Source: Sphagnum magellanicum (taxonomy: Eukaryota > Streptophyta > Sphagnopsida > Sphagnales > Sphagnaceae). Taken from it: DNA of 64,000 nt. The stretch lies in NCBI GenBank assembly GCA_021904315.1, contig CM038911.1, forward strand, positions 19,565,390-19,629,389, given 5' to 3'. This document shows, piece after piece, positions 5,860 to 60,480 of the stretch. A program made the translations under genes and the position numbers. The notes below the pieces were generated by a model, which was not told the DNA's origin, did no database searches, and saw nothing but the letters and a program-made list of their open reading frames with translations. Numbering within the stretch: the first letter of the stretch is position 1; every line of letters begins with the position of its first letter.

Positions 5860-6115
5860 TGTCTAAGGCACATCAAGGAATTATCACTCCATGGAGGGTG
5901 AATGCTATGCATTGATTTGGGGAATTGTGCATTTTCATCAATAGCTACATACAAGCCCTTTTATTCTTCGTATGGATCACAAGTTGCTAAAGTGACTAGC
6001 TAGTATTTGTGATGTGCATGGGAAAAGGGGTAGGTGGGTGGGCATGTTGCAAGATTTCAACTTTGCAATATAGTCCATCACCAAGCCATTAAGCACACAA
6101 ATGTCGAGGAACTCA
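5860..6115 (+). pseudogene. gypsy RNase H fragment
   Basis: Pieces in shifting frames read NYHSMEGECYALIWGIVHF, then a segment like L-R-DHK-LKWL, then HGKRGRWVGMLQDFNFAI and IVHHQAIKHTNVEELN. These match in order the RNase H that follows reverse transcriptase in Ty3/gypsy polyproteins, including the EGEC-AV-WG start and the K/R-H-NVDALSR end. At least two frame changes break it. The missing reverse transcriptase upstream points to an internal deletion between about 5750 and 5850. Confidence 0.65.
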
Positions 6116-23005: not shown

Positions 23006-23135
23006 TTCCGCAGCAAAGCGATGGTTCTTCCGCTACTGCGGGAGTGCGATGGCGGAGACTTGGGCGAGAGAGAGAGAGAGAGAAAACGCAGCAAATCCTT
23101 CTTTCCCTTTTGCGCCGGGATTTGGTTTTGGATAA
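23006..23135 (-). promoter_or_regulatory. HEMC upstream region with (GA)n
   Basis: The CpG-rich stretch directly upstream of the HEMC start contains a GA dinucleotide run (about 23065-23082, CT on the gene strand). I see no clear TATA box. Assignment as promoter or 5' UTR is from position only. Confidence 0.35.
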
Positions 23136-23139
23136 TCTT

Positions 23140-24160
23140 TCATCCACCGTCCTCATCCATCCTCACGTCGCATATCCATCCATGAGCTTTCTAACTTCAT
23201 CTATAATCAACAAGTGTGTTTTAATCCACCCAGGTATCATGCATCGTCCATCATGACCCATGCATCTCATACATCCATCCATGCATAACCCTAAACCACC
23301 CCTACTACAACATCTAGAGTGTTATTAATTTTCTCTTTTTTCAATTTTCTTCGTAAATCTTTCATCCATGTTCCTTATCCATTGTCATATTACATATCCA
23401 TCCATGAGTTTTCAAACTTCATCCATGATCAACAAATGTGTTTTAATCCACACCAATATCATGCATCATCTATCATGGCCCATTCACCTCATACATCCAT
23501 ACATCATTAACCCTAAACTGCCCCTACTACAACATCTTGAGCATCATTAATTTTCTCTTTTTCCAACTTTTTTCATAAATCCTTCATCCATGTTGCTTAT
23601 CCGTTGTCATGTCACATATCCATCCATGATCAACAAATGTGTTTTAATCCACACCAAATAGCATGCATCATCTATCATGACTCATGCACCTCATACATCC
23701 ATACATAATCCTACTACAACATCAAGAGGGTAATAAAACTTTTCTCTTTTTTATCTTTCACTTTCCATAAATCTTTCATCCACCTTCCTTAACCATCGTC
23801 ACATCACATATCCATTCATGACCTTTCAAACTTCATCCATTATCAACACATGTTCTAATCCACAGCATCATGCATCCATCATGACCAATGATGTTCTTCA
23901 TACATCCATGTACCCTACTACTACATCTACAAGGTTATTAATTTCTCTTTTCAATTTTCATTTTCTATGTATCCTTCATCCATGACCTTTCAAACTTCAT
24001 CCATAATCATGAACATAATTTGTTTTAATCCACAATATCATACATCCATACCCTACTACAACATCTTCAAGGTTATTATTTTCTCTATGAACATTCATTC
24101 TTTGTAATCCTTCATATTTGCCATGTCACATATCCATCCATGACCTTTTAGACTTTATCC
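23140..24160. repeat. decaying tandem array of CATCCATGA units
   Basis: At least five to six copies share CATATCCATCCATGA, TTTCAAACTTCATCCAT, ATCAACA-ATGTGTTTTAATCCAC, ATCATGCATC-TC-ATCATG, TCATACATCCAT, CCTACTACAACATC and TTATTAATTTTCTCTTTT. Unit starts lie at about 23177, 23401, 23620, 23813, 23981 and 24136, so the spacing shrinks from about 224 to about 155 bp through internal deletions. An AACCCTAAAC string occurs in the first units. No coding potential; the open frames in it are low-complexity artefacts. Confidence 0.85.
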
Positions 24161-26151: not shown

Positions 26152-27600
26152 TCACGCTCTATGTTTCCTTTGCCTCTTTGCTGGTCTATTGTGGAATTCT
26201 TTTATGGCTTCTTGGGCATGTTCCATCTCGGACTCATTCACCCAAGATGCTTCTATTGGATGGTATTCTTTCCATTTAACCAAATATTCCCGTTCTCACC
26301 TCCTTAGTTGCCTTGATTTGAACATGGCCTCCACTTCAAATTCCGGTTCATTATGAACCAAGTCTAGAGGGGAACTTGAGTTGTGCTTTCGATTGGGCCT
26401 TGAGGCATCACGAGCGACCGGTTTCAAAAGCGAAACATGAAATATGGGATGAACCTTAAGATTTTCTAATAGTTCTAACTTGTAAGTGTTAGGAAATTTA
26501 TTTTCTAACACTTTAAATGGGCTTGCATATGGGCCCAAGAACTTGTGGCTCAACCCTTCTGGTAATTGGAAATTCTTGATGTTCAACCACACTTCATCCC
26601 TTTCTTCAAAGTTCACCTCTCGTTGGGACTTGTCCGCAAAGTCCTTGTACCTTTTATGTGCTTTTTCAAAATTGGCCTTGGCCATTCCCCACAAGCGCCG
26701 CCTCTCTTCATCAAGTTGTGTGACCATGGGTACTTCCTCACTCGCATCACATGGAGGTTGCCCAACCCAAGTTGTGGGCACAATTGGTGACTTGCCGGTC
26801 ACCATTTGAAAAGGGGTGGCCCTTGTTGTTGAATGCTCTGAATTGTTGTAACAAAACTCGACCAACTCCAAATGGTCTATTCAATCTTGTTGATCCGCCG
26901 CCACATAATTTTTAAAGAATTGTTGGATCACCAAATTAACCCTCTCGGTTTGTCCATCCATTTGGGGTCGTAATGAGGTGCTCATTTTGAGCTCTAACCC
27001 CATGCGCTTCCACAAGGCTTTCCAAAACTTGCTTGTGAATTTTGGGTCTCAGTCCGACATAATGTCCTTTGGGAGGCTATGATGCTTGAACACGTGGGTG
27101 AAGAATAACCTTCCCGTCTCTTGGGTCGTGACATTTTCTTTGGTGGGAATGAAGTGTGTCATCTTGCTAAATCAATCCACCACCACCATGATGGCATCGA
27201 AGCCCCTTGATGGGAGTAAGTTCACCATGAAATCCATGAAGACACTTTCCCACGGCCCTTTCGGAATGGGTAATGGTCACAACAATCCGGCTTATTTCTT
27301 ATTGAGTACTAGGTTTTGTTGGCAAGTCAAGTAAGTCTTCACATATTCCTACGCATCCTCTTTCAAGTTGGGCCAATAGTAGGACTTCTTGAGGAATGTG
27401 GTGGTGCCACCCTGGCCCGCAAGGGGCCCATCATGACATTCCTTCAAAATCACGTCCCTTAACCTCCGTTTTGGAACATAAAGCCAATTTTGCTTATAGC
27501 ACAATAGTCCATTCCGCAAGTGGAAATGGGACTTGATCCCCTTTTGAATGTCTTGCTTCCTTCCCTTGGCAAACACATCACGACGGATTTTGTTGCTTTT
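26152..27600 (-). mobile_element. truncated chromovirus: integrase and chromodomain
   Basis: Minus-strand Ty3/gypsy pol 3' part. Order: the integrase zinc-binding region (RRLRDVILKECHDGPLAGQG, then YYWPNL, then CQQ); the catalytic core with VFMDFM, VVVDRFSKM, a DPKF segment and DGQTERVN; the C-terminal module (26871-26296) with FEERDEVWLNIKNFQLPEGL, FLGPYASPFKVL and HPIFHVSLLKPV; then a chromodomain, REYLVKWKEYHPIEASWV, ending at the stop at 26152. A single TGA, probably from CGA, separates the integrase tail (SRQLRR) from the chromodomain. Other in-frame stops interrupt the core. The copy stops abruptly at about 27600, so reverse transcriptase, protease and gag are absent. The chromodomain identifies it as a chromovirus, a lineage that reads histone marks for integration. 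Confidence 0.85.
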
Positions 27601-39590: not shown

Positions 39591-40247
39591 GCACCAAAAA
39601 GTCATGTGCTAGGGCAGAGACACCAAGCAATGAGCTACATGTTATTTACAAGTCTTGGAAGCTGTTCTCAATGTACCTAATGTAACTATGGAAGTCATGC
39701 TTTTACAATTACTTTGACTCTTTTGAATGTACCTTTTTTGACTTGTGAGAACTTCCTACATTATAATTTACACTTTATAATAACTAGTGGTAACCCTTGC
39801 CTGCAAGGCACAGACGGTTTTCAAGTGTGGCACATTTCAAGTGGTCGTAAGGTTACTTCAAACTTGGAACACCCACTAAGTCGGAGCTAAAATAAAAGCC
39901 TGGCTAAAATATGGAGGAAGGAGGCATCCATCCATCCATCCACTCATTCATCCATTCATCCCAAAGTTGAGGGACCTTATAAACCTTATAAGAGACCTTA
40001 CAAACCCAAACCCTCCCTTGCTAGTGTGCCTTATCTCCAATTTCTTCATCACTCCTTGAAACAAAGTAACCTAATTGAAAATTAGTTCAAAGCAATCTTC
40101 TTCACTAGAGTAACAGGTTCTGGGCTGAATCTCAACGCCCTTCCGCCTAATTTCAGGGCAAGCAGCCTGGTGAATCTAAATCAGACCCCAGTGCCTACTG
40201 CTTTTTGGCCCCCAATAAGATTTATCCCTTTGGTTTGCCGGGCAGTT

Positions 40248-40683
40248 GTCTTTCCTTCGCCTAGTCAGGACTCACCACTCTGAAATAATGGGGGTACGGC
40301 ATTTCAGGTGGTGCGGGATGTGGTGGGTGGGCACTTGAAGGATTTGTTGACAATGTGTCTTTCCTTTGCCTCATCAGGACTCACCACTCTGAAATAATGG
40401 GGGTACGGCATTGCAGGTGGTGCAGGGATGTGGGGGTGGGCACTTGAAAGATTTGTTGACAATGTGTCTTTCCTTTGCCTCATCAGGACTCACCACTCTG
40501 AAATAATGGGGGTACGGCATTGCAGGTGGTGCAGGGATGTGGTGGGTGGGCACTTGAAGGATTTGTTGACAATGTGTCTTTCCTTCGCCTACTCAGGACT
40601 CACCACTCTGGAATAATGAGGGTACGGCATTGCAGGTGGTGCGGGGATGTGGTGGGTGGGCACTTTAAGGACTTGTTGACAAT
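40248..40683. repeat. four-copy 109-bp tandem repeat
   Basis: Four near-identical copies start at 40248, 40357, 40466 and 40576 (periods 109, 109, 110). Each contains GTCTTTCCTT-GCCT, CAGGACTCACCACTCTG, AATAATG-GGGTACGGCATT, AGGTGGTGC and GGGCACTTGAA-GA-TTGTTGACAA. High identity suggests recent amplification compared with the diverged surroundings. Frames through it are artefacts. Confidence 0.95.
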
Positions 40684-40864
40684 GAGGTGCACCTTCAATG
40701 GTTACAGTCTTTTCCATATGATGAATGTCAAGAAAGAGCGGGCCAGAGGGAATTCACCTTCATATTGGGATCGTCGAAAAAACCAGTGTTGGCGGGTTAC
40801 CGATTTTCTTAGTACTCGGCTAGGTAGGTAATTAAAAGAATTTCTGGTTTCATTTTCCCTTTTG

Positions 40865-46385: not shown

Positions 46386-47762
46386 AGTAAGTTAAAGTAA
46401 GATAAAGACAGACGGACTAATAGATTAAGGGAATTAATAGACGGTGGTGACGACGCAATCGATGGCTGACGTGTGTCTCTCCGCCACCATGACCCGTAGC
46501 ACCAAAATTATACAGAGGCCGGTTCTGCCATAGAATGCTTTTGCAGCAGAATTGTCGTGTCACAGACAGATGTAGTGAATTAATTAAGTAGATGTAGGTA
46601 GTAAGTTGAGGTATATCATAGACAAGTACCAAATGCATGTGCTTTCTATGTAGGAGGTAAGTAGGTGAGGTACTTTGTGGCTACTACATAGAGAGATGCA
46701 CATCAATGGTTAGTACATACTTAACCACCATGGGTACATAGTTAACCACTGTTGCTAGCCTTGCGACAAGGATACAAGGAAAAGGTGTTCCCTGTTCACA
46801 CACCATCTATCATCCTGCTGCCTGCATGGTGCCCTGGAGGCTGGTGGGTGGTGGTTGACTCTGACCTGAAGACAGTGATACAGGAAGTGGGCAAGACATA
46901 ATTGGTGCAGCCCCTGGTAAGGAGATGGATCCCCATCTTTCTACTAAGGTCCAGGACTGATCAGATTATGTCTATTTGATCACAATTCTGACGTGTCTAA
47001 AGTGTGAGATAGGTAGAAAAATGGCATAAACTGCCAGTCGGCTACAGTGAACCAGCTCCCACCAGTGCACCATCCACTGGATGCCCATTATTACTCAGTT
47101 GTGGATGAACCTCAACTGAATTATTATTTGGTTTCACCTTGGTGACCAATTCTGTAGGAAATAGGTCTCGTACATAGGTAGGTAGGAAAATAGGCAACTA
47201 CTAGGTAAGTAGATGGTTTATCCATATGTAAGGGCTGTTTTATTACCTACCTACTAATAACCTGCTTGTGGGTTGTTGGTAGGTAGGTAGTTAAAAAAAC
47301 AATTGAGCTAACCACCATGGTTATCAGACCATTTATCATTCATCCATCATGGTGCACTGGTGGGTGCTGGTTCAATAAATCTTTGGTTTCACCTTGCTAA
47401 CCAATTATGTAGGAAACAGGTCTCATATATAAGTAGATTGGAAGGAAAATAGGTAACTACTAGGTAAATAGATGGTTTATACATAGGTAAGGATTTTTTT
47501 ATTACATACCTACTAACAACTTACTTGTGGGTTTTCAGTAGGTAGGTAGAAAAAAAACAATTGAGTTAACCACCATGGTTAGCTAAGGAATTGTGTTGTG
47601 ATGTGTAGTGTCATGATGTTCGGTGTTGTAAAGGCGTAAATCCATAATAAACTCTACTGAACAAAAATACTAAAACTAGTCAAAGGTAGAAACTAATCAA
47701 CCAAAAAAAGATGCACGCACGTATATATAGAATGCACAAGAAGAGGTTGAGATGAAATTTTC
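46386..47762. repeat. R3-rich region, possible 3' LTR of the DNMT element
   Basis: It contains GTAGGTAGGTAG-type strings throughout. 47050-47210 is R3 inverted relative to 38110-38300. A diverged tandem duplication of about 245 bp covers 47140-47330 and 47390-47580, sharing ACCAATT-TGTAGGAAA, ACTACTAGGTAA-TAGATGGTTTAT, CTACTAA-AAC and AACAATTGAG-TAACCACCATGGTTA. Because it lies directly 3' of the minus-strand gypsy element, part should be its 3' LTR, but I could not match it to the 5' side. Confidence 0.5.
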
Positions 47763-47818
47763 ATGTACCCCCCCCCCAGACTTGAGTCGGGAAAAGCGTG
47801 GCATGGTTCAAATAGAAG

Positions 47819-48214
47819 TCAAGGTGCTGCAGGAGAACATAATGAACAGTACCAAATGCTGGCGGGAATTTGAGTGAGCTTTGACTTGAGGCAGAATAGA
47901 TGGTATTCACCATTACAATTATCGCAAAGCATCATTTGATCAGTATCGTCCGTCCTTTAACATACTTGACATGGATAATCAAGTGGAGGAATCCAAGTTG
48001 ACGTGATGATGGTAGGATCCAGGTTTGGCAGGTGGTAGGGTGCACAATTTTTGAAATGATCCTGAATAGTGCGTTTGTCAGTTCCTTGCAACTCCAACAC
48101 ACTTAAAGGCCTAATTACTTCAATCCTCAAGAAAGTGCGATCGGAAGAAGTGACTAGAGTATCATTAGGTTGTCGTTGGAGATACACAAAGTCACCAACA
48201 TCAAATTGTCTCAT
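47819..48214 (-). pseudogene. C-terminal tail with PHD finger (gypsy polyprotein)
   Basis: The integrase tail continues as FDVGDFVYLQRQPNDTL, then a linker ending in STWIPPLDYP, then a Cys4-His-Cys3 PHD finger. Cys pairs: C-QV-C (codons at 47971-47969 and 47962-47960), CDNC, then H-LF-C after four residues (CNGEYHLFC), and WYCSLC before the final stop at 47819. A TAA at 47959-47957, from CAA by one transition, sits just after the second Cys. PHD fingers usually read histone H3 tail states, so in life this could have steered integration or the methyltransferase to particular chromatin. Chromoviruses use a chromodomain in the equivalent place. Confidence 0.8.
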
Positions 48215-49260
48215 TTTAGGTTTGTAACTGTCACCTCGTGTGTGTGCATACTGTAAGGTGTTTCGATGTGTGAAATGGACAAGTTTTCCATGGCCATGCG
48301 CATAACCCTCCAGAATAGAATAGCCCTCTTTGCGATGACCCTAGCCACTTGGGCTAGGGAGTCCAAATTCACAACCTGGTCCATTTGAACAGTAATGGAA
48401 GAGGGTGGAATGGGATGTCTCCCAAAAAGTAGAAAGTAAAAAATGAAATGAGATAAAGAGGCGTGTTTGGACATCTTGTAACCCATGGCGATGTAAGTTA
48501 GGGCCAGGTCCCAATCTTCTTTGTTCCTAGTGAGGCAAATTTTCCAAAGTTTTTTTTTGGATGTCTGAACCATCCTCTCTACAAGGCCATCAGCTTGGGG
48601 ATGATCCCTTGAAATCTAGCGATGGTCAATGAGAACATGATTAAATAGGTTTTGGAATTTTCCTCTAAAATCTGATCCTTGATGAATAAGGCACTTAGCA
48701 TAAGCCCCAAACCTATTTAGGACTTGTTGTAAAAAAGCCTGGTTAGTGCTGTGTGATGATTTGTCCAGCAGTGTAACAAGTTCAACCCACTTTGAAAAAT
48801 GCTCAATCATAATCATGATGTAGACATTACCCTTGGAGGTCTGTGGTAACTCTCTAGTTAAATCACATGACTAACCATAGAACATGCCCTGAATAGGGAG
48901 TGGAAAAAGCATGAGCTGTCGAGAGGAGAAAGAAGTTTTCATTCTATCACATTGTTCACACCTAACAATGACCTTTTGGACTTGAGCATACATACCTCTC
49001 CAATGGTAATGAAAAGTGAGAAGGCTATAAGTATGCTTAATTCCAAAGTGTCCAAGCTCCGAGTTTACCTTTTGAATAAGACCAAGCCGTTCATGTGGTG
49101 GAGGAACCACTCTGTTGCCTTGTTGTAAGCATCGAATGAAGTGATTGTCCCTCCATGAGTAACGTTTAGACCACTATTATATGCGATCTTGATGTAACTT
49201 GGGGAGGGTATCCCCCATGCTGAAAAAACCTTAGAATGTCCAAGTCCTCCCATATATTCA
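48215..49260 (-). pseudogene. gypsy integrase
   Basis: The zinc-binding N-terminus reads SELGHFGIKHTYSLL, then HWRGMYAQVQ and RCEQCDRMKTSF (HHCC pattern). The catalytic core has VYIMIMIEHFSKWVEL (first acidic position Glu instead of Asp in MIEHFSKW), an IHQGSDFRG segment (second Asp) and HPQADGLVERMVQ (catalytic Glu). It is interrupted by TAA and TAG codons at about 48615 and 48870. A change near 48240-48300 disrupts the tail before FDVGDFVYL. Confidence 0.75.
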
Positions 49261-49329
49261 TAATAGGATGCTCAACCAAGTTACATTGTAGTAGTGCAAG
49301 ATAACCAAATGCATAAAATACATGTACTA

Positions 49330-50583
49330 ATGGAATCTGGTCAAAGTCTTGCTTGACTTCTAAGAAATCTTCAAAAGTAATGAAGGGTTTCCACGACATG
49401 GTATCCGCGTTTTGATGTGTAATACCAAGTCAGTGAATAACCTTGAACTCATATTCTTAAAGTATAAGTGCCCAACAAGTTAACTTACCAGTAAGCTTGT
49501 CATTGGTCATCAACCATTTGATAGGCTGGTGGTCGGTATACAAAGTGAATTTGGTGCCATAAAAATAAGGCTTGAAATGTATGATGGCCCATACAACAAC
49601 AAAACACTCCCCCTTGTATGAAAAGTAGTTGTTCTTAGCCTTGTTGTTTCGGGATGCATAAACGATAACATATTCCTTGCCTTTCTCATCAAGTTGGCCA
49701 AGAATAACACCAATACCAAGAACACTCTAGTTAGTGTGTAAAATGAAAACCTTGCTGAAATTAGGTCTTTTTAGAATGGGGAACTCTGAAAGTTTTTCCT
49801 TGAGTGTGTTGAAAGCTTCTTGAGCCTCTTCATTCCATGTCCAAACAACATCATTTTTTAACAATGCATAGAGAGGATGAGCAATAGTACTAAAGTCTTG
49901 AACATAAATCCTATAGTAATTACATAGTCCAATGAAGCTCCTCAAAATGTGAACATCAGTAGGATTGGGCATTTCCAAAATGGCTATTACTTTGGTCTAA
50001 TGAGGCTTAATACCATTTGGCAAAATTTTATGTCCAAGGTAAACTACTGAGGTGATAACAAATTCACACTTTTTAGGATGGGTCTTCATATTGACTTCGT
50101 GGAAACTCTTGAATAACTCTTCAAAATGAACCAAGTGTTGCAGGAGTCCTTTGTTATACACTAGGATGTCATCTATGTAGCACTTCAGGAAATCTACCCC
50201 TTCAAAAACTTGGTCCATGACTCATTGAAAGAAGACATGCGCATTCCTCAATCCAAAAGGCATCACAAGCCATTCCCACAACTTGTTGCTTCCATGGAAT
50301 GTTGTTTTCCTGTGATCCTTTGTAGCGAGCATATTCTTGTTAAAGCCTTGTATTAGATCCACAATTGTGAAGATGTTTAAGTTTCCAATGCTATCAAACA
50401 GTTCTTCAAGGATGAGCATGGGGTACTTATCTTGAGGTGTAACTAGGTCAAAGGCTTATAATCCCCGCACATCCTTTTCTTAGTCCTTAATCTAGCTGAA
50501 TCTTTCTTTGTTGGCATTACCGTAGTGGTTGTGAAATTAGAACTTGATGGTTGAATGAGACTAGCCTCATGGAGCTCTTTACA
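49330..50583 (-). pseudogene. reverse transcriptase C-part and RNase H
   Basis: It continues the RT downstream of solo LTR B: IFTIVDLIQGFNK, then WLVMPFGLRNA, then the catalytic motif KCYIDDILVY (about 50167-50178), HPKKCEF, VYLGH, and the connection domain LRSFIGLCNYYR. RNase H follows with FSKVFILHT, GVILGQLDEKGKEYVIVYASR, a YKGECFVVVWA block, YTDHQPIKWLMTN and GITHQNADTMS. Stops interrupt it (for example about 50219, 49994, 49724). Confidence 0.8.
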
Positions 50584-50588
50584 TCTTT

Positions 50589-51406
50589 TGTCACAACCCT
50601 ACTTAGAGGAAATGTGAGGATGAAACTCACACTTCCGAAATTGGGACTTGGGAGTCTTCCGGGACTCCCAAAATTTCAAAGTTCGATTGCAGGAATCAAA
50701 ACACCTCGCATTGGGGTGTTTTTTATAACATTGGAAAACTATCAAAGTGTAGATGTCTAAAATGGGATCGCATGGGCCATTTGGACATTTGCAACATAAG
50801 TTATGGCAAAAATAATGGTCGAAAGTCAAACTGGCAGTTTGACTCCCAACCACTAAAAGCCGGGAATCGGCTTGACCCCGATGCGTGCAGGTGGAGTGCA
50901 ATACACTGTTGGAAAGCTCTTGAAGAGAGCTATAACTTTGCTTCAGACCTCATCACAATTGGAGGTTTGAGCAAAGAATTATGATCCTGCAAAGTTCTGG
51001 GAGGCCAAACTGGGACAATTTCGGGACTCCTTCTTGCGAGTCTTGGGACAAAAAGCCATTTGGATGTGGGTGCCGCGGAGAGGCATAGAGTATACTGTAT
51101 GGGGGAAGGTGGTGGCTTCCCCTAAGTCCGGGCCGTGGTGAGTCAAGTGAATCCAGGGTTGCCCGTGGCTTATCCTAACACCAAGGGTGCTCCAAAAAGT
51201 GAACTAACCAATTTGTTGGTTGGTTTGATGTAGGTTCGAGTAAGTGAATAACTTGTCACTCTTCCTAGTCCATCCCGGAGCTTCAGCACGCCCCTCTACC
51301 CTTTCTAGTGTTGAGAGTTGGGAGTGTGCCCCAAGTTTTTCACAATTCCACTGTGTGAGTAACCTAGACCCAACTTGGATTTAATTAGGAACTTGGGAGT
51401 GCATCA
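50589..51406 (+). mobile_element. solo LTR copy B inserted in the RT domain
   Basis: 818 bp, TGTCACAACC to GTGCATCA. It is flanked by a perfect 5-bp target duplication TCTTT (50584-50588 and 51407-51411). It interrupts the reverse transcriptase of the DNMT element between KHEWELVDER and the CKELHE-like continuation, in the opposite orientation. Same family as copies A, C and D. The family hairpin GGGGGAAG...CTTCCCC lies at about 51098-51120. Confidence 0.92.
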
Positions 51407-51411
51407 TCTTT

Positions 51412-51835
51412 CATCTACCAATTCCCACTCATGTTTGCTCAACCTATGCCTCCTCCAATAAATGGGTGTCTCATTTGTAAGGTCTATAAAGAACTGCATG
51501 GTCTTACACCTACCTAAGTTTTTCATTGAGAATGCGAACACATTCTTGTACTTAATTAGCAAGTTTGTGACTTGGTTTCTCTCCTTTTTGGTGAGTTGGT
51601 TCCCCATAACGAAAGGGTAGTTGGAAACACATGGAATGGAGTTGGAAAGTGTGTTTGAAGAACCTGGTGTATTGGGTTCTCCACTATCCAACTGTGTAAA
51701 TTCGTAGAAGGTTATAATTGGATTTCCAAGAGTTGATGTACCTCTAAGTGTATCAAAAACAACTTGAGTTAAATTACATGGTACTTCCTCATCCCTAACA
51801 CTAAGAGTGAAGTGTAGAATGTTAAAGATATGCAA
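51412..51835 (-). pseudogene. reverse transcriptase N-terminal part
   Basis: A 143-codon open frame containing QLTKKERNQVTNLLIKYKN, VFAFSMKNLGRCKTM, FFIDLTNETPIYWRRHRLSK and EWELVDER. This is the segment that opens gypsy RT (VFA...DL, a-i-d-t-pi-qrpRRl). The following residues are split off by solo LTR B. The protein lies directly C-terminal of the methyltransferase domain. Confidence 0.8.
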
Positions 51836-51884
51836 ATGTACTTAGTTGGGGTGCCATGTAATCGCATCATTAGAACTATAAGCT

Positions 51885-52895
51885 GATTAAATTAGTGTTC
51901 GCGTTATGTACATTTCAAAGAGTACGTAAGTTACTAATAACCATGTAAAGGAGTTTAGGTCCATGCCTTTCCCTAGTAGAGCGTTATGCTCCAATCTAGT
52001 CACCTTGGTGTGATTAGTAGTGCCAATTTGGAACCCCATAGTCCTTTCTCTTTTTTTTGGGCTTAATTCATCCCAAGTGGTTGAAGCATGACGATATACT
52101 AGGCCTGGTCCATCTCCTTAAAAAGCATGTGCTCCTAGGAAGGAGACAAAGGTGGGCTAATCACTTTTTGGTTTTCCTATTGTGTTTACAAGAAACCAAG
52201 GAGGCTTCTCTTGCCTTATAACTAGTTGGTAAAAGCTCTGATCATCCAATATGTGAGAAACCTACAAGTTAGGGTCTCTAATGGTGTATCTCAGGGCCAA
52301 TTGCAGAATTGAAAGTGGTGCAAGGTTGGTCCACCAGTTACGTAGCCGGTGCACATAAAAACTGCATTGTGCCACATCAAGTAGGAGTGGCTCTCCAAGG
52401 TAATGCTTGAACATTGTGTAGTGCTCCTGGACCTTTTCCCTCTGGTCAAAATGAGAAGGGGTGTTTTCGATGACATAACCAAGCGTAGAAGAAATGGATT
52501 GAGCCTAGGTGATTAATCGTACCATGTCCATGAAAAGACCGAATCTTATGTCATTCAAGCCTTCTCCAAATCTAGTCGTTGAAAATCCTTAACACTCTCA
52601 ACCTGAAATGATGAGGTTCACGGGGCCAAGTAATTCCATATGTTTCTTTTGAATTAGTTATATGTCAAAGGGTAATAAAGTGAAACTTGCCTTCCATGCG
52701 GTGGTTGCAAACTGTTGTGGAAATTTGGTTGTGAGTTCGATCATTTTCAATGCCACCACTTGCCTTGCAATAGGATCAATGTTTACTTAAAAATACCTTT
52801 GAACCACCATCCCTAACTTTAGTAGGACTTCAAGACTTGTACCAATACCACCAAAGAGTTTTAGTAATGTAATCCCCTCTAGTTTAGGTGGTGTC
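51885..52895 (-). pseudogene. C5-cytosine DNA methyltransferase domain in gypsy polyprotein
   Basis: One continuous frame of about 335 codons with nine in-frame stops and no frameshift. Motif I: LLKLFGGIGTSLEVLLKLG (about 52868-52812), followed by NIDPIARQVVAL. Motif IV: E-C-(stop/Q)-G-F-S, catalytic Cys codon at 52594-52592. Motif VI: LGYVIENTPS (about 52483-52454). Motif VIII: AQCSFYVHRLRNWW (about 52372-52331). Motif IX/X region: SPKKREGTMGFQ (about 52062) and NALLGKGMDLNS (about 51987). The order I-IV-VI-VIII-X is the unpermuted one of DNMT1/2/3 and CMT, not the rearranged order of plant DRM; LG-VV-RY after motif I resembles DNMT3. The domain would transfer methyl groups from S-adenosylmethionine to cytosine in DNA. 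It lies between protease and RT. This copy cannot be active. Confidence 0.85.
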
Positions 52896-53362
52896 TAGGT
52901 GATTAGCTGACGAAGTACTAGTTTAATTGGTTCGCCATGGCTCTCCATGTTCTCAAAACTAGGCAGAGTTTCGACCAAGGGTTCGTGGGTTGCTTTGAAC
53001 CTCTGTAAAGCCTTTAGTCCGTGTTGAATGTCTGTAGGAACCACCTTCAAGCTTTCAATAGCTTAGGCATAAGTTGTCTCCTCTTCATTTCCCTTTATCC
53101 ACTCATGGTTAGCTTGTTGGATGTAGGAAATTGTGTGTGCTTCCTTGAGCATACAATGGTGAGCCATAGGATTACGGTTCCCATGTAAATCAAGGGGTAT
53201 GTATCCCAAGTGGTGGCCATTAGTCTCCTAATCCACTTGGTAGTACACATGCTCAAACTAATTGTCAATTAAGAAACCTAGTGGAAACAAGGCCTCTTGC
53301 CTAATGAATACATTATAATTGGTGGCATTGGTGACTAAACATTTGACCTGTAGGCAAAACTC
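52896..53362 (-). pseudogene. linker between protease and methyltransferase
   Basis: Polyprotein region in one main frame. It contains readable phrases HHLGYIPLDLHGNRNPMAHH, MLKEAHTISYIQQANHEW and VPTDIQHGLKALQRF. I recognise no catalytic domain. It probably completes the protease and forms a spacer before the methyltransferase. Confidence 0.55.
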
Positions 53363-53703
53363 CTAATCTATACCTTCATTGAAATTAAATGTAATCAAAT
53401 TCGAGCTCTCCTTAAGTACCTCCTTTACATTCCCACTAGCAATGCGAATTTGCCACATAGATTTTTGTAGTTTGGAGTCGATCATGCCCATTTTCTTAGT
53501 GAATTGAACTCCAAGAATCACAGGTTGGGCACTTGTATCAATAAGTACCACTCTAGGTGTATGTCCTCCCACTTGGATTGTTGATTCAGTATTGTCGACA
53601 ATGGCAACTCCGGTGGTGATGGAAGTTCTTTCATTAGGCACCACCTTCGAAAATGAGTGAGAGATTTTGTGAAGAGAACGCCTTTGCTGAGTAACAAATC
53701 CAC
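53363..53703 (-). pseudogene. gypsy aspartic protease
   Basis: The frame carries TIQVGGHTPRVVLIDTSAQP, with the catalytic triad Asp-Thr-Gly read as Asp-Thr-Ser (53539-53531; GGT to AGT is a single G-to-A change), followed by FTKKMGM and LQKSMWQIRIASG. The length and order fit a retropepsin that cuts the polyprotein. The Gly-to-Ser change would kill or weaken it. Confidence 0.7.
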
Positions 53704-54549
53704 AAGTGAGGTGTAATTAACTCCTTTCTAATATGTGAATGTAGAATCAAAGGTAGGAGAGCCCACTAATTTAGCCATGCTAAAACTAGTGACCAGATTA
53801 CGAACACCATTAACAACACGTGAGCCAATCGAGTGTCTCTCCAAGGTGTTGGATGGGACCCTTGTAGCATGTGGATCAAGGATTGGTAAAGGACCTGATG
53901 TAATGTTCAAGGTATCCCTTAATACTACAATTATGTCCCTGATGCTTAGCTTCAAATCTTAAAAACTAAACAACAATGTGTTCACAAGTTTTTGTGCCAC
54001 TTCACGCATTTGAAGTTGGCATTCCATAAGCTGATCAATGGAAAATTATGTGTTTTCCTAATGTACATGTACTCTTGGGACACGAGAATTTGATGCCCTA
54101 GCAACTTGTGATGTAGTAGTCTCCTCCCCCCTCGCCAATAAGGTGTGTTCTTCTTCTGTGTTGAGAGGACAAAAAGATTGTGGCATGATTGCTCGAGCTC
54201 CTATAGCCCTGGTAATAGGACTTGAACTAGATGTGAGTCCATCAGTCTGAATTACCTACCTAGTGATAGAAACTATAGGTGCCACACTAACCTCTTGTGC
54301 CGCGAAGTAGGAAGGGCAAAAAGAAGTGGCAAATTCTGGTGTGAGAGTAGAATTGTGTGCACTAGAAAAAACATACTCTCCAACCATGGCATCGTGTGAA
54401 AGGCCATAAAACAACCTAGGAGGTCCCTCTTGTGCTCTTGAACCCTGTACAAGTTGGGCATGACTAGCTGGTTGGGAAGATTTGTTTTTTAGATTAGTAA
54501 GTTGGGCTTTCAATGATTCGAGTTCATTTTATAGAGTTTGAACTTGAAC

Positions 54550-54892
54550 AACGTGGGTTGGAAGCACCTCCCTCTTGTGCTCCTTCTTCTTAGTATTTTT
54601 TCTGGAATTGCCCTTGGTGTAGAAAGCCTGAATGGAAGGTTGAGGTGCCTTGGCTTTTAGTTGAGGCGCAGCAAAAAATGCTAGGAAATTTTGTCCTAGT
54701 AATCGGAATTATTTCTGTTTTAGGAACTTGGTAAAATAAACAACTTCCTGATGTCCCTTTTTCCCACAATAATCACAAAAGAGATCCTCAAAAGGAATGT
54801 TACACTCATTAGCTTTGTGGGCAGGATTGCCATAGTAATTACAAAAAGTAGGATGGGTGAAGCTGAGTGCATCGCTTTAGCCTTTGAAGAAA
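54550..54892 (-). pseudogene. gag zinc-knuckle region
   Basis: Two CCHC-type knuckles in tandem: C-NYYGNPA-H-KANE-C (54843-54802; the second Cys is now Tyr) and CDYCGKKGHQEVVY (54776-54735; the last Cys is now Tyr). Each loss is a single G-to-A change on the coding strand. Basic sequence follows (KGNSRKNTKKKEHKRE). These domains bind the RNA genome. Solo LTR C separates them from the upstream gag. Confidence 0.7.
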
Positions 54893-54897
54893 AATGT

Positions 54898-55909
54898 TGA
54901 CGCACCCCCAACTCCTCAAGGGACTCAAATGTGAGCCCAAGTATAAAGCAGCAGAATAAGGAGGAGTTGGAGCACGCTCCCTAGCTCACAACCCTTTGAG
55001 GGGTAGAGGGGCGGGTTGGAGCTCCGGGATGGGACTAGGAAGAGTTGACAAGCTTTAGTCACTCACACGGGTCTGCACACAACCCACACAAAGTGGTTAG
55101 TGCAAAGTTGGAGCACCCTTGGTGCTAGGACGAGCCACGGGCAACACGAACACACAAGACTCACCACGGCCCGGACTTGGGGGAAGCCACCACCTTCCCC
55201 CTTATAGTATGCTCTGTGACTCTCCACGGAGCCCACATCCAAATGGCTATTTTTCCCGGGACTCCCGCGTGGGAGTCCCGAAATCGCGCCAAATGGGACT
55301 CCTGGGACTTTGGAGCCCCATAACTTTGCGAGCAGACCTCGGATCGCAATGTGGTCTGAAGCAAAGTTGTAGGTCTCGTCGAGACCTTTCCAACGGTATG
55401 TCGCACGTTCTCTACAGCCAAGTATTTTGGGTCGATTTCCGACTTTTAGTGGTCGGGAGTCAAAACTGGCAAACTCCCGGGAATTCGACTCCCGACCCTT
55501 CTTTTGGCCATAACTTGTGTTTTAGATGTCCAAATGAGCAATGCGAGCCCATTTTAGATATTTACGCTTCAAGAGCTTTCTCATGATATAAAGAACGCCA
55601 CAATCCATCGAGGTTTGACCCCTGCAATCGCTCTCTGAAGTTTTGGGAGTCCACCGGGACTCCCCTTCCCAAAGTGGGAGTTGCCTTGGGAGTGTGAGGG
55701 TTCACTCCCTCACACTTTCTAACACTTTCTCACACTCCCGGGAGTATGTGATGTGACTCCCGGGTTTCCTCTTGCCTTAACTCCCGGGCATCCTCTTGGC
55801 CCGCACTCTTACAATGCCTTTGCCTTGACTCCCGGGCTTCCTTCCTCTTGGCCCGCAACCTTGCAACCCCCTTAGCCTTGGTCGCGAGCCCAAAGTTAGG
55901 GTTGTGACA
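54898..55909 (-). mobile_element. solo LTR copy C inserted in gag
   Basis: 1012 bp on the minus strand, TGTCACAACC (right end) to GTGCGTCA (left end). Perfect 5-bp target duplication AATGT at 54893-54897 and 55910-55914. Longest and most CpG-rich member of the family, with an extra GC-rich segment rich in ACTCCCGGG after its start that A and B lack. The family hairpin is at about 55177-55202. Confidence 0.92.
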
Positions 55910-56101
55910 AATGTGATGATTTGGTTGGCGCGACTAGTGGAGGTTGAGGCCTTAAATGTGATGGAGGCTTCTTAGTATTGGCCTTATAGTGTGCATGAAC
56001 CAGTTCCAACTTTTCAAAAATGTTGTACACATCCAACAAAATGTACAAGTCTCCAAATTCTGTAAAAACTCGTTATAAAACCTACACATGGAATGTTGGA
56101 G
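55910..56101 (-). pseudogene. gag fragment between two solo LTRs
   Basis: A 192-bp island of the host element. In one frame it reads FGDLYILLDVYNIFEKLELV and HAHYKANTKKPPSHLRP, a natural continuation of gag. It is bounded by the target duplications of LTR C and LTR D, which proves that C and D are two separate insertions into the same gag gene. Confidence 0.75.
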
Positions 56102-57012
56102 TGACGCAACCCTAGCCTTGGGCTCGTGACCAAGGCAAGGGCTTGTAAGGTTGCAAGTCAAGAGTGAGCATGGGAGTCACATTTCATGATCCCGAGAGTG
56201 CAGAAGAGTGTGAGGGAATGAACCCTCACACTCCCAAGTGAACTCCCACTTTGGAAGTTGGAGTCCCAATGGACTCCTGGATCTTCAGAAAGCTATTGCA
56301 GGGGCCAATCAAATTGGATTGAAACATTCCTTATATCATTGGAAATATCTTGGAACTTAAATGTCTAAAATGGGCTCGCATAGCTCATTTGGACATCTAA
56401 TACACAAGTTATGGCCAAAAGAAGGGCCTAGAGTCAAATTGCCAATTTGACTCCCGACCACTAAAAGTCGGGAATCACCTCGATTTCCTTGCGTATAGGT
56501 GGCGTGCCACATACCGTTGGAAAGCTCTTGATGAGAGCTATAACTTTGCTTTAGACTACATCTCAATCCGATGTCTAATCGCAAAGTTATGGGGCTCTAA
56601 AGTTGCAAGACTCTCAACTTTAGTAATTTCGAGACTCCCACTTGGGAGTCCCGGGACAAAAAGCCATTTGGATGTGGGCCCCGTGGAGAGGCACAGAGTA
56701 TACCATAAGGGGGAGGGTGATGGCTTCCCCCAAGTCCAGGCCGTGGTGAGTCTAGTGTGTCCGTGTTGCCTATGATTTGTCCTAGCACCAAGGGTGCTCC
56801 AATTATGCACTAACCATTTTGTGTGGGTTGTGTGTAGGCCCGTGTGAGTGAGTGAAGCTTGTCAACTTTTCCTAGTCTCATCTCGGAACTCCAACCGGAG
56901 TCTCTACCCCTCAAAGTCTTGTGAGCTAAGGAGCGTGCCCCGATTCCGCCTTCTTTCATTATCTTCTACTTGGACTCACATTTGAGTCCTTCAAGGGGTT
57001 GGGAGTGTGTCA
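56102..57012 (+). mobile_element. solo LTR copy D inserted in gag
   Basis: 911 bp, TGACGCAACC to GTGTGTCA. The flanks are TGGAG (56097-56101) and CAGAG (57013-57017). These differ by two transitions and both derive from CGGAG by loss of one CpG, C-to-T on one side and G-to-A on the other. Same family as A-C. It shares with C the GGCTCGTGACCAAGGC-type start region. Hairpin GGGGGAGG...CTTCCCCC at about 56709-56731. Confidence 0.88.
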
Positions 57013-57017
57013 CAGAG

Positions 57018-57954
57018 TACCTTCCAACAAATAAAAATACCGATGGGCAGCTTCCAGGTCTATGATGCTCTAAGTATCCTCTTTAACCTTGAGAAGTTTC
57101 ATGTATAGCATCTTGAGGGTTTCATCCTTTTGCCGAAAGGGTTTAGGTGGCGAGTTACAAAATTCTTTCAAAACTTTTAACCGAAAATTCCAACTCAAGA
57201 ACTAGAAAAAATTCCCCCACTGGATTAGCAAAAGTTGCTGCATCAATGATGGGAGGAATGTTTGTGATAGTAGCAATGAGTTGTTGAGAAGAAAGGTTTA
57301 GTGAAGTAAGTACCAGATTTAAATTATTGGGCATAATCTCATGATGTGTAACGGTAGCTTATAGTGCAGCTTGAGAGGCGATAATGATGACTATGGCATA
57401 AGCTAGATTGGGGATTTGGGTGACACAAAAATCCTTGGAGATTGTTGTTCATAGACATCCAATGCCTCATAATGCACATAACGAGCTAATTGTTTGAATG
57501 CGAACACCTTGGTGTAATTAACGCCATACTTGACTTCCAATTCACAAACCATAGTTGAGAAAGTTGTTTTGAACTCCCTCAAAGAAATGGTACCTAGCCT
57601 TCCACTAAACTTTTTAATTATCCCAAAGGAACTATTGACCTCCATGGTGTATATGGGTGTAGAGGTAATGGCTTGCAACGGAATATATAGTGATGGTGTG
57701 AAAGTTGGTGCGACGGCAGGTGTACCCCATTGATTAACCCTTCCAAATGGACTTTGATGTACCATTGATGTAATGTATCCTAAACTTGAATTCTTGGTAG
57801 GAGTTGTACTGGATGATGGTGGTGTTGTAGACACTTGATGGTACCGTTATGAAGATCGTGAGTTCAAAGAAATCAGCTCAAATGATTGTGTGTTACTTTG
57901 TACTTGATACCTTAGCTCTAACTAAATAATAATGCTATCATCATTTGAGGACAT
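57018..57954 (-). pseudogene. gag N-terminal part of the DNMT element
   Basis: It starts at ATG 57954 (MSSNDDS). Two stops (TAG at about 57924 and TAA at about 57850) are followed by the frame TTPPSSSTTPTKNSSLGYIT, IKKFSGRLGTISLREFKTTF and FKQLARYVHYEALDVYE, typical of a gypsy gag with its predicted helical retrotransposon_gag region. Further down comes KPFRQKDETLKMLYMKLLKV and IIDLEAAHRYFYLLEG, which meets LTR D. A TAG lies just before IIDLEA. Confidence 0.7.
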
Positions 57955-58489: not shown

Positions 58490-58722
58490 GTAATGTTGAT
58501 GAAACTGCGACCAGACAGTGATGAATGGCAACGTTGATGAAACTACAACAAACGGTAACGTTGACAGAACTATAACAAACAACAAGATTGATGGAACTAT
58601 GACGAACGACAATGTTGACGGAACTACAATGAACGGCAACATTGACGAAACTATGACAAACAACAACATTGACGAAACTACGATGAATAACAACATTGAC
58701 GAAACTACAACCAGATGGCAAC
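58490..58722. repeat. 27-bp minisatellite, about eight units
   Basis: Units of the form CGTTGATGAAACTACAACA then AACGGTAA repeat every 27 bp from about 58494 to 58722. Because 27 is a multiple of three, frames in several phases stay open on both strands; on the plus strand it reads as a 9-residue repeat like NVDETTTNG. I regard these frames as by-products. Units differ mostly by C/T and A/G exchanges. Confidence 0.9.
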
Positions 58723-58766
58723 GGTGATAGTGATTGCAACGAACGGTAACTGCGACGAACGACAAG

Positions 58767-58990
58767 AACGATGAATGGCGACGGCGATTGTAATAGCTAA
58801 CAATGGACAACGACTCCGACAAACTACAATTATAACAAACAACGATGAATGGCGATGGCGATTGCAATGGCTAACAATGGACAACGACTCCGATAGACTA
58901 CAACTATAACAAACAACGACGAACGGCGATTGAGATTGTGATGGATGGCGACTATGATGGATAACAACCACGACGGACGGCGACTATAAT
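58767..58990. repeat. 74-bp tandem repeat next to the minisatellite
   Basis: Copies start at 58767, 58841 and 58915 (AACGATGAATGGCGA...). They share ATGGACAACGACTCCGA and ACTACAA-TATAACAAAC; the third is partial. They are built from the same ACGA/GGCGA vocabulary as the 27-bp array, so they likely arose from it. Confidence 0.85.
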
Positions 58991-60480
58991 GGATGATAAC
59001 TGCGACGGCGATGGTGCTACAAAGCGATGCACATCTGCGAGCTTTGCATTGATGGCATGCACAAAAGAAAAGAGAATTTTTTTTCTTTTACTTCATGTTT
59101 TTTTTAAAAAAATTATCTTCTTCGTTTCTTCAACAAATCTTGAAGCTTGTTGCTTTGATCATTCGTGTAGAGAGTCGGTAGAGATGGAAATAAATAAATG
59201 ATCTTTGAAAAAATGAAGAAAACCAAATGTTTACTGATCTGAAGTTCCTCTGGCAAATTTGCACGAGGAACTAGAGCAACAAAGAAGTTAAAGCACAAAA
59301 AAAGAAAAGGAGGAAAACTAATCTGGATGTAAATCAATGTGTAGATGCTCAATGGGTACTCAACATGCATGTGAGTGAAATCAAAAGCTTAGACTTGCAA
59401 AAGCTTGCAGTAGCAGCCACCATGGGTTTTTTCGGTGTCCCCTCTCCTTCGCTTACATTATTGCTAGTTATGGTTGTTGTTGTTCCTATTGTAGGTGTTG
59501 TATAAGAGCAAAAAAAAAAGAAGTAACAACAACTCAAGAACATAAGAAACCAATAAGCAAAAGAAACCTAAAAAACTCAAAATTAGGAAAAATCTATCAC
59601 TTTCAACATTAAGTGACAAAAAGAAGTTTTTCTAGAATTAAATTGAGTTGAAAAAAAGGAAAAAAAACATAATGTATGTAAATAGTGGTCATGTAATAGC
59701 CACCATGAACATCTAGAAATCCAATCTAACTATGAAATAAACTTTCCCTAACAAAAGAATTTTAAAAAAACTGCTAAGAGAAGGGAAGAGCTTGACCTTT
59801 TATACAACCGTCAACAAAACTAAAACCCTAAACAAGCCATAACCCTAAAACACCAAATAACGTACAGTAATCTAGTAATCTAATAACGTACATTAACTTT
59901 AAGAGGGTACATTAACTCTAGAGGCATAATTAACATGCCCCTAACCGACCGTCATGTATGAGATCATGCATATGGGCATGACAACTGGAACCCAACATAA
60001 ATTTGTTTCCTAACCGCTTACCATTCATTCTTCATGGTGCGCGCTGGTGGGTGCTGGTTCACTGTGGCCTTGCCGATCCTGCCTATCAGTGATCATGAGA
60101 TTGCCTATCTTTTAATATTTGTTGTACCGTCTTCTGCACCCACTGTTTAGACTTTTTTTTTTGTTCTTAATTCTGCAAAACCTGCCCCCTTTACCGATAG
60201 TGCGCCAGGTAGATTCTGCGACGTTCTCAAGGGTTCCCTCCTGTATTTTCAACGGTTCCCTATCAATTAACGCCATGGAGCGGGCCATTAGTGGCGCATT
60301 CTGCCGGGAGAGAAAAATATCTTAAAGACCCAAATTACTTAAAAGCTTTATCAGTACCAGGTTGAACCCACTCTCTTTCTCTGATTTCTGGAATCGTCAC
60401 ATTGACTTTGACCGTGCAATAAGTTACTGTTTCACAGCAGAAGGACACATTGTATTCAGCGGATGGAGCACGGCACCTTG
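58991..60480. other. spacer with R3 fragment, no gene
   Basis: No gene recognised. A fragment at 59999-60065 (ACCATTCATTCTTCATGGTGC, CTGGTGGGTGCTGGTTCACTGTGGCC) matches R3 ends at 47340-47372 and 39540-39590. Two teloboxes-like AAACCCTAAA strings occur near 59821-59850 without an adjacent gene. Confidence 0.4.

Follow-up and report, generated by a model that had tools for sequence, protein, structure and literature searches.

Structure of the element in the window

The window, by which we mean the whole 64,000-nucleotide stretch of Sphagnum magellanicum DNA that was analysed (contig CM038911.1), contains an old, broken member of a multi-copy peat-moss retrotransposon family of the Ty3/gypsy type. 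Its features are given below in the direction in which the element reads.

59673..59983, minus strand: left terminal repeat A1, decayed, starting TGTCATG (68% identity to repeat A of a young copy)
53659..57645, minus strand: gag in three pieces (57645-57016, 56102-55905 and 54843-53659) with inserted LTRs between them (tblastn with P0150)
53230..53677, minus strand: aspartic protease of a retroelement (PF13975, E 0.005, below cut-off; matches to P0150 and P0123)
51905..52876, minus strand: DNMT3-like C5-methyltransferase domain of 324 codons with 8 stops, motif IV of the EC type (Pfam, PDB and protein searches)
51407..51904, minus strand: spacer and start of the reverse transcriptase (RT), in the methyltransferase frame (P0121 match 52810-51407, 79%)
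50589..51406, minus strand: inserted solo LTR of another element, 818 bp, inside RT, with a 5-bp duplication (AAAGA)
49205..50595, minus strand: RT and RNase H (P0121 80%, P0153 45%)
48241..49170, minus strand: integrase, H2C2 zinc finger and core region (PF17921, E 6e-14; matches to P0153 and P0082)
47837..47971, minus strand: PHD finger at the end of the integrase (PF00628, E 2.8e-10, 40.5 bits against a cut-off of 24; PDB PHD matches)
47768..47777, minus strand: poly-G tract, likely the polypurine tract (from sequence; at the same place in four of four sampled copies)
47594..47767, minus strand: repeat B1, right end of the window copy (80% identity to the corresponding stretch of young copies)

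The protease, a linker, the methyltransferase and the region ahead of RT lie in one minus-strand frame (53719 to 51407) that contains stops and no frameshift, while the frame of the window copy changes at three borders (gag/protease, RNase H/integrase and integrase/PHD). An earlier note, made from the letters alone, had placed a C5-methyltransferase domain inside a Ty3/gypsy polyprotein, between protease and RT in a single minus-strand frame, and this placement is borne out, as is its span of 51885 to 52895, within which the methyltransferase proper runs from 52876 to 51905. The succession protease, methyltransferase, RT that it described stands as well, and what it missed is the PHD finger, the EC motif, a second family and the permuted repeats, all taken up below. 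In the family as a whole the order in pol is protease, DNMT3-like C5-methyltransferase, RT, RNase H, integrase and PHD finger, and the order of protease, RT, RNase H and a DDE-type integrase is that of Ty3/gypsy elements (Pfam matches of P0121 and P0153, and the matches in the window). The gag of the window copy has no Pfam gag match, and its name rests on position and a CCHC-like pattern. The 64-kb window yielded no ordinary pair of LTRs for the element, whose repeats were recognised from young copies.

Arrays of 27-bp and 74-bp units occupy 58529-58938 (minus strand), between the left repeat and gag, and the 5' untranslated part of a young copy also has internal repeats. Elsewhere in the window, a 194-codon open frame at 26296-26880 (minus strand) resembles, by reading, the integrase end of another gypsy element, a fragment at 5879-6070 (plus strand) with 41% identity to the RNase H part of P0153 is a remnant of a further gypsy element, and tandem repeats occur at 40247-40684 (four copies of a 109-bp unit) and 23134-23629 (2.2 copies of a 222-bp unit).

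Identity of the methyltransferase and the PHD finger

With X written at its stops, the window methyltransferase has DNMT3A as its top PDB match (E 1e-7), together with a second, weak piece that corresponds to the C-terminal end, and it matches PF00145 at E 9e-4, below the curated cut-off of that family. A Pfam search against PF00145 had been proposed as the check on the domain, with the lack of any C5-methyltransferase match as the result that would count against it, and a match was found. Intact relatives are clearer: PF00145 was matched at E <= 0.01 in all 18 that were scanned (alignment A1; best 4.6e-9), and the top database relative, P0001, shares 75% identity across the entire methyltransferase domain (E 1.4e-159). 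When the predicted model of P0001 (22 aligned sequences, mean pLDDT 81.5) was submitted to Foldseek, DNMT3A and DNMT3B came out on top and the best 50 PDB matches listed were all DNMT3 structures, the first being 6f57_D (E 3.8e-15, TM-score 0.84 by target length and 0.58 by query length). The sequence is likewise closest to DNMT3A/B/C in the PDB search, and motifs I to X are linear, not rearranged as in DRM.

Likeness to host DNMT3A/3B thus extends to the fold, the order of motifs, the C-terminal end and the combination of a chromatin reader with a methyltransferase. The element differs in its overall identity (19% in the structural match), in having EC for PC in motif IV, and in carrying the reader after the integrase and not beside the methyltransferase. 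The domain is labelled DNMT3-like and was not filed as DNMT3 because the catalytic Pro-Cys of motif IV is absent from this family, hereafter the EC family. Motifs I, IV, VI, VIII and the IX/X region are present in the order in which they had been read; motif IV departs from the canonical form in having glutamate, not proline, before the catalytic cysteine.

That residue is glutamate in all 45 genome copies compared, which also retain the catalytic cysteine (44 of 45), the motif VI glutamate (44 of 45) and the two motif VIII arginines (40 and 38 of 45). Database searches gave 164 matched stretches from 161 proteins, 65 of which leave motif IV uncovered; among the 99 that cover it, glutamate precedes in 88, proline in 6 and other residues in 5, and the cysteine is present in 98. 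The PC pair is, to our knowledge, near-universal across C5-methyltransferases. As a yardstick, a divergent alignment (A4) was run against viral contigs, where 80 C5-methyltransferase-like loci were kept and proline was found in 79 of 79 motif matches, with one of the patterns used allowing either P or E. The EC motif requires two changes on both trees that were built, and a single change in 16% and 21% of the bootstrap trees.

The C-terminal piece of the window element matches PHD models and has no chromodomain match at E 0.01. The best 60 of its 134 PDB matches include KMT2D, KDM5D, WSTF, KDM5A, BAZ2B, DPF3, KAT6A and UHRF1, and several PHD fingers of this set recognise the H3 tail or H3K4 in its unmodified state. 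PHD sequence also lies downstream in each of four sampled EC copies, as a whole finger in one and as its end only in three, where the sampled piece starts inside the finger.

Copies and relatives

A search of the S. magellanicum genome (439 Mb, 31 contigs) with P0003, a 574-residue query spanning the linker, the methyltransferase and the start of RT, returned 77 matches at no fewer than 76 places besides the window copy. This is a lower bound, with 76 scored out of 1343 candidates at first look, and the window copy is not among the 76. At 7 of the 76 places the matched stretch has no stop, and open frames around the matches are up to 2379 codons long. Among proteins, P0123 and P0150 carry the protease followed by the methyltransferase (P0150 with a gag-like part ahead of the protease that has no Pfam gag match), P0121 has methyltransferase, RT and RNase H in one frame, P0153 has these and the integrase, and P0082 from S. 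magellanicum joins the integrase region to a PHD finger.

Two protein searches gave 196 and 756 database matches, and the named sources among the best 120 of the 196 were Sphagnum compactum, S. magellanicum and S. balticum. In the liverwort Calypogeia fissa, P0124 has the protease and the methyltransferase in one frame, with 62% identity to P0003 across 57% of its length. The Sphagnum-type sequences group in one clade with P0150, the Calypogeia sequence and P0122, and this clade includes the window copy (support 100/100, and 100/99 in the second tree), in trees whose sole DNMT3 row is human DNMT3A, used as a far row. No Klebsormidium sequence appeared among the matches listed (best 120 of 196 and best 120 of 756) or in a further protein search, and no relative was found in the viral contigs scanned with P0003, alignment A2 and P0150, or in the bacterial and archaeal contigs scanned with alignment A2. 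A search of the host genome with RT for sister elements lacking the methyltransferase scored 150 of 3473 candidates.

Two observations on the database side may be recorded here. P0152, a methyltransferase of this element kind, is filed as bacterial (a Candidatus Obscuribacterales metagenome bin) and is probably stray eukaryotic DNA. P0156, P0157 and P0158 make up a third, well separated branch (99/99, 100/100) of retroelement-like methyltransferases with FPCQ, and P0156 has zinc knuckles too.

Because the window copy is broken and scores below the Pfam cut-off, its domain might be supposed to be a chance insertion or a pseudogene fragment confined to this copy. That explanation was rejected and has practically no probability left: the at least 76 further genome places already refute it, and the 196 and 756 database matches, the occurrence in three Sphagnum species and a liverwort, and the purifying selection described below all stand against it. 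The earlier note had looked to relatives with the same placement of protease, methyltransferase and RT for support, and these exist in P0123, P0150, P0121, P0153 and the genome places; its opposite case, that all relatives would lack the domain, was not what emerged, the same stretch being encoded at all of those places, without a stop in seven.

A second family was reached with a DNMT3A query of the host genome, which found 10 places. Three have a canonical PC, four belong to the EC family, and three, with motifs I to IV alone, are DRM-like by reading. The three PC places (L140, L143 and L146) have 34-43% identity to P0121 in the matched pieces. In L146 the methyltransferase (PF00145, E 2.2e-12) lies in an 840-codon frame with a protease-like stretch ahead of it, so named by reading and with no Pfam match, and RT follows in another frame (PF00078, E 8e-26). 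Searching the genome with the L146 methyltransferase (124 of 1114 candidates scored) gave four places at 93-100% identity; other PC-type places follow at 58-65% and lower, and numerous EC copies at 36-42%. In both PC copies examined an integrase-like stretch precedes a PHD finger (by Pfam in one copy, E 5.4e-10); next come a poly-G tract and then split repeats, of which B1 and B2 measure 107-108 bp (100% and 99% identity). The methyltransferase, the PHD finger and the repeat layout are therefore common to the two families. No true host DNMT3 gene was found at E 0.001 in a six-frame genome search, a search made without introns that can miss one.

Selection and decay

Selection was estimated from 48 of the 76 places, taken with about 1.5 kb on each side, and three of these (L088, L102 and L111) were dropped from the methyltransferase count for want of an ungapped methyltransferase frame, leaving 45 copies. 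Among stop-free copies the Nei-Gojobori dN/dS of the methyltransferase is 0.26 (9 of the 45 usable copies, 36 pairs; codon bootstrap 0.18-0.39), alongside 0.33 for the protease (20 copies), 0.27 for the linker (39) and 0.28 for RT with RNase H (12). The ratios in any copies are 0.44 for the protease (43), 0.28 for the linker (47), 0.36 for the methyltransferase (45) and 0.46 for RT (34), and in copies with at least three stops 0.57 (5), 0.43 (18) and 0.64 (6) for the protease, methyltransferase and RT, respectively. Neutral simulations under twelve mutation settings, with 60 pairs each, gave 0.61-1.02; the simulation is simple, the pairs are non-independent, and picking stop-free copies biases toward low ratios. 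The methyltransferase is constrained much like the protease and RT, and purifying selection acted on it during the time in which the family was transposing; it therefore serves the element.

The window copy itself is old and dead. Its methyltransferase has 79% identity to one stop-free copy and 8 stops in 324 codons, seven of which replace a residue that is Q or W in most copies, and across the 45 copies 89 of 97 methyltransferase stops fall at Q, W or R sites, as expected from C-to-T decay. Three LTRs of one other family have landed inside the element, one in RT with its 5-bp duplication and two in gag (about 54898-57015), the latter facing opposite ways and separated by about 200 bp of gag. 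In one sampled copy of the family, on the other hand, the two A repeats differ at just one of 313 bp, so that the family has moved recently.

Terminal repeats and integration

In young copies the left end is a 313-bp repeat A, and the right end consists of B (178 bp, immediately after the poly-G tract), a gc dinucleotide, A and B again. This A-ORF-B-gc-A-B layout is present in two of four sampled EC copies, whereas the remaining two, like the window copy, show A-ORF-B alone. A1 and A2 share 99.7% identity over 313 bp in one copy and 97.8% over a 324-bp match in the other, and B1 and B2 share 100% and 98.3%. The element ends in TG...CA, A beginning TGTCATG and B finishing CACGACA, and exact 4-bp target duplications flank all four sampled copies; the window copy, with CAAT at its right end and CAGT at its left, agrees at three of four bases.

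These ends fit neither of the familiar plans. Ty3/gypsy elements have the same complete LTR at both ends, and here A stands on the left and B or B-gc-A-B on the right. DIRS elements have a tyrosine recombinase and make no target duplication, and here PF17921 and PF00665 are found in P0153 and the duplications are of 4 bp. The element thus combines a DIRS-like permuted repeat layout with a DDE integrase.

The junction of B, gc and A (CACGACAGCTGTCATG, at most 1 mismatch) has 106 matches in the genome, some of them one place read on both strands, and its reversed pattern has none. Placement used 100 of the 106 matches (93 places). Among the matches listed, the junction lies downstream on the same strand at 25 of the 76 methyltransferase places (within 2-8 kb; 2643-3871 bp away) and upstream at 0 of 76; it lies downstream on the opposite strand at 2 of the 76, both with a self-complementary motif. 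In the PC family the junction is downstream at 8 of 21 places and upstream at 0 of 21, again among the matches listed, the 21 being drawn from 23 places at >=58% identity after two short ones (C21:188140 and C18:5.88 Mb), with no junction listed nearby, were left out. On C4, at 3308682 and 3309170, two B-gc-A junctions lie 488 bp apart on one strand, roughly one A+B unit, as if tandemly stacked.

Viewed from reverse transcription, B-gc-A sits between the polypurine tract and the primer-binding site like an LTR, and the chromosomal ends fall in the middle of it. The leading idea is that a circle opened at B|gc|A is the intermediate from which the layout arises. A simple two-LTR circle opened at random at either junction predicts equal numbers upstream and downstream, and it is disfavoured because the junction was found downstream at 25 and upstream at none of the 76 places, among the matches listed. 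For the shorter A-ORF-B form, recombination between B1 and B2 would be as good an explanation as one-LTR circles.

Known systems and possible functions

Retrotransposons of this kind have been described from dinoflagellates and a charophyte (PMC5890265, in part), in agreement with the earlier note, which pointed to reports of methyltransferase capture in charophyte and dinoflagellate algae, and PMC12344493, in the part used here, names streptophytes and dinoflagellates, citing the same work. The closest known element, compared by its published description, is KnitGypsy-Dnmt3 of Klebsormidium nitens, in which a DNMT3-related domain likewise lies in a gypsy Pol frame and is likewise under purifying selection, with Ka/Ks below 0.2 (PMC5890265, in part); according to a figure legend there, it too combines DIRS-type repeats with gypsy domains. 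The moss element differs in its land-plant host, in the PHD finger after the integrase and in the EC motif of one family; a PHD finger receives no mention in the main text of PMC5890265. SymbioDIRS-Dnmt3 and SymbioLINE-Dnmt are also retrotransposons with a C5-methyltransferase, but the former is a DIRS element with a tyrosine recombinase and the latter a LINE, whereas the moss element is a gypsy element with an integrase (PMC5890265, in part). Chromodomains and Tudor domains are known at the integrase end of gypsy polyproteins, and relative to chromoviruses and those chromodomain or Tudor elements the moss element is set apart by its PHD finger and by the methyltransferase inside pol (PMC12477816, in part); PMC9033089 yielded nothing on domains of gypsy polyproteins. 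The main text of PMC6317226 has no mention of a methyltransferase, a PHD finger or Sphagnum, and the open-access literature (subscription journals and preprints mostly lying outside that scope) gave no report either of a PHD finger on a gypsy integrase or of a moss or liverwort element of this kind.

A likely role for the methyltransferase is to methylate the DNA of the element itself ahead of integration; the earlier note had suggested that such an enzyme could mark or defend the element's copies. Produced within one polyprotein together with RT and integrase, the methyltransferase would, after reverse transcription, methylate cytosines of the new double-stranded DNA, and the PHD finger, judged by its likeness to known fingers, may anchor the integrase on chromatin, probably of a silent kind in which H3K4 is unmodified. 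In that case each new copy would arrive already marked as a silent repeat, which could lower its cost to the host or avoid the sensing of naked DNA, and the element would unite the reader and writer functions of host DNMT3. The SymbioDIRS-Dnmt3 domains of dinoflagellates do produce CG methylation in yeast (PMC5890265, in part). KnitGypsy-Dnmt3 and SymbioLINE-Dnmt produced none, a result that the authors called inconclusive, human DNMT3B failing too (PMC5890265, in part). Our confidence in self-methylation was lowered to an even chance because of the KnitGypsy-Dnmt3 result, and the EC motif is a further ground for doubt. We therefore put at about even chances the full reading, in which the window holds a decayed member of a gypsy-type family whose pol includes a selected methyltransferase and a PHD finger, the one marking the element's own new DNA and the other tying integrase to chromatin.

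The same two grounds lend some weight to a domain kept for binding and not for methyl transfer, as a SAM- and DNA-binding part of the reverse transcription or integration complex, much as DNMT3L aids DNMT3A. Glutamate in 45 of 45 genome copies and 88 of 99 database stretches would suit such a role, as would, inconclusively, the lack of methylation by KnitGypsy-Dnmt3 in the yeast assay where human DNMT3B also failed (PMC5890265, in part); yet a mere binder would have no need of the cysteine and the motif VI glutamate, each kept in 44 of 45 copies, and the sister family has the canonical PC, so that we consider this explanation rather improbable, if deserving of serious thought. An enzyme acting on the host, whose methylation of chromatin, whether around the target or at other sites, would shift host silencing in favour of the element, is unlikely: the PHD finger at the integrase end and the production of methyltransferase and integrase from one polyprotein (the 2379-codon open frame) are compatible with it, but Klebsormidium, which bears such elements, has a plant-like methylome (PMC5890265, in part). 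Very unlikely indeed is work on RNA or in defence against DNA viruses, which has been proposed generally for accessory methylases of retrotransposons (PMC6338049) and, as an RNA role, for LINEs (PMC5890265, in part); against the RNA role, both fold and sequence match DNMT3 and not DNMT2.

Returning to self-methylation and chromatin reading, a broader picture can be offered, tentatively and at less than even confidence, of an old bryophyte retrotransposon clade that writes and reads chromatin marks through its methyltransferase and PHD finger and that integrates with a DDE integrase from circles that open mid-LTR at a conserved, near-palindromic junction. In one family the glutamate beside the catalytic cysteine might then represent a re-tuned active site, selected since before the element lineages of Sphagnum and Calypogeia parted.

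According to a published review, land plants lack methylase-encoding transposons. Such elements do occur there, in a moss in many copies and under selection, and in a liverwort at least as a protease-methyltransferase frame. With methyl-writer and chromatin-reader domains in one element, the self-marking of new copies becomes testable in a sequenced plant. The EC motif raises the question of how fixed the PC motif of C5-methyltransferases is, and permuted repeats together with target duplications raise that of the route by which such an element enters a chromosome.
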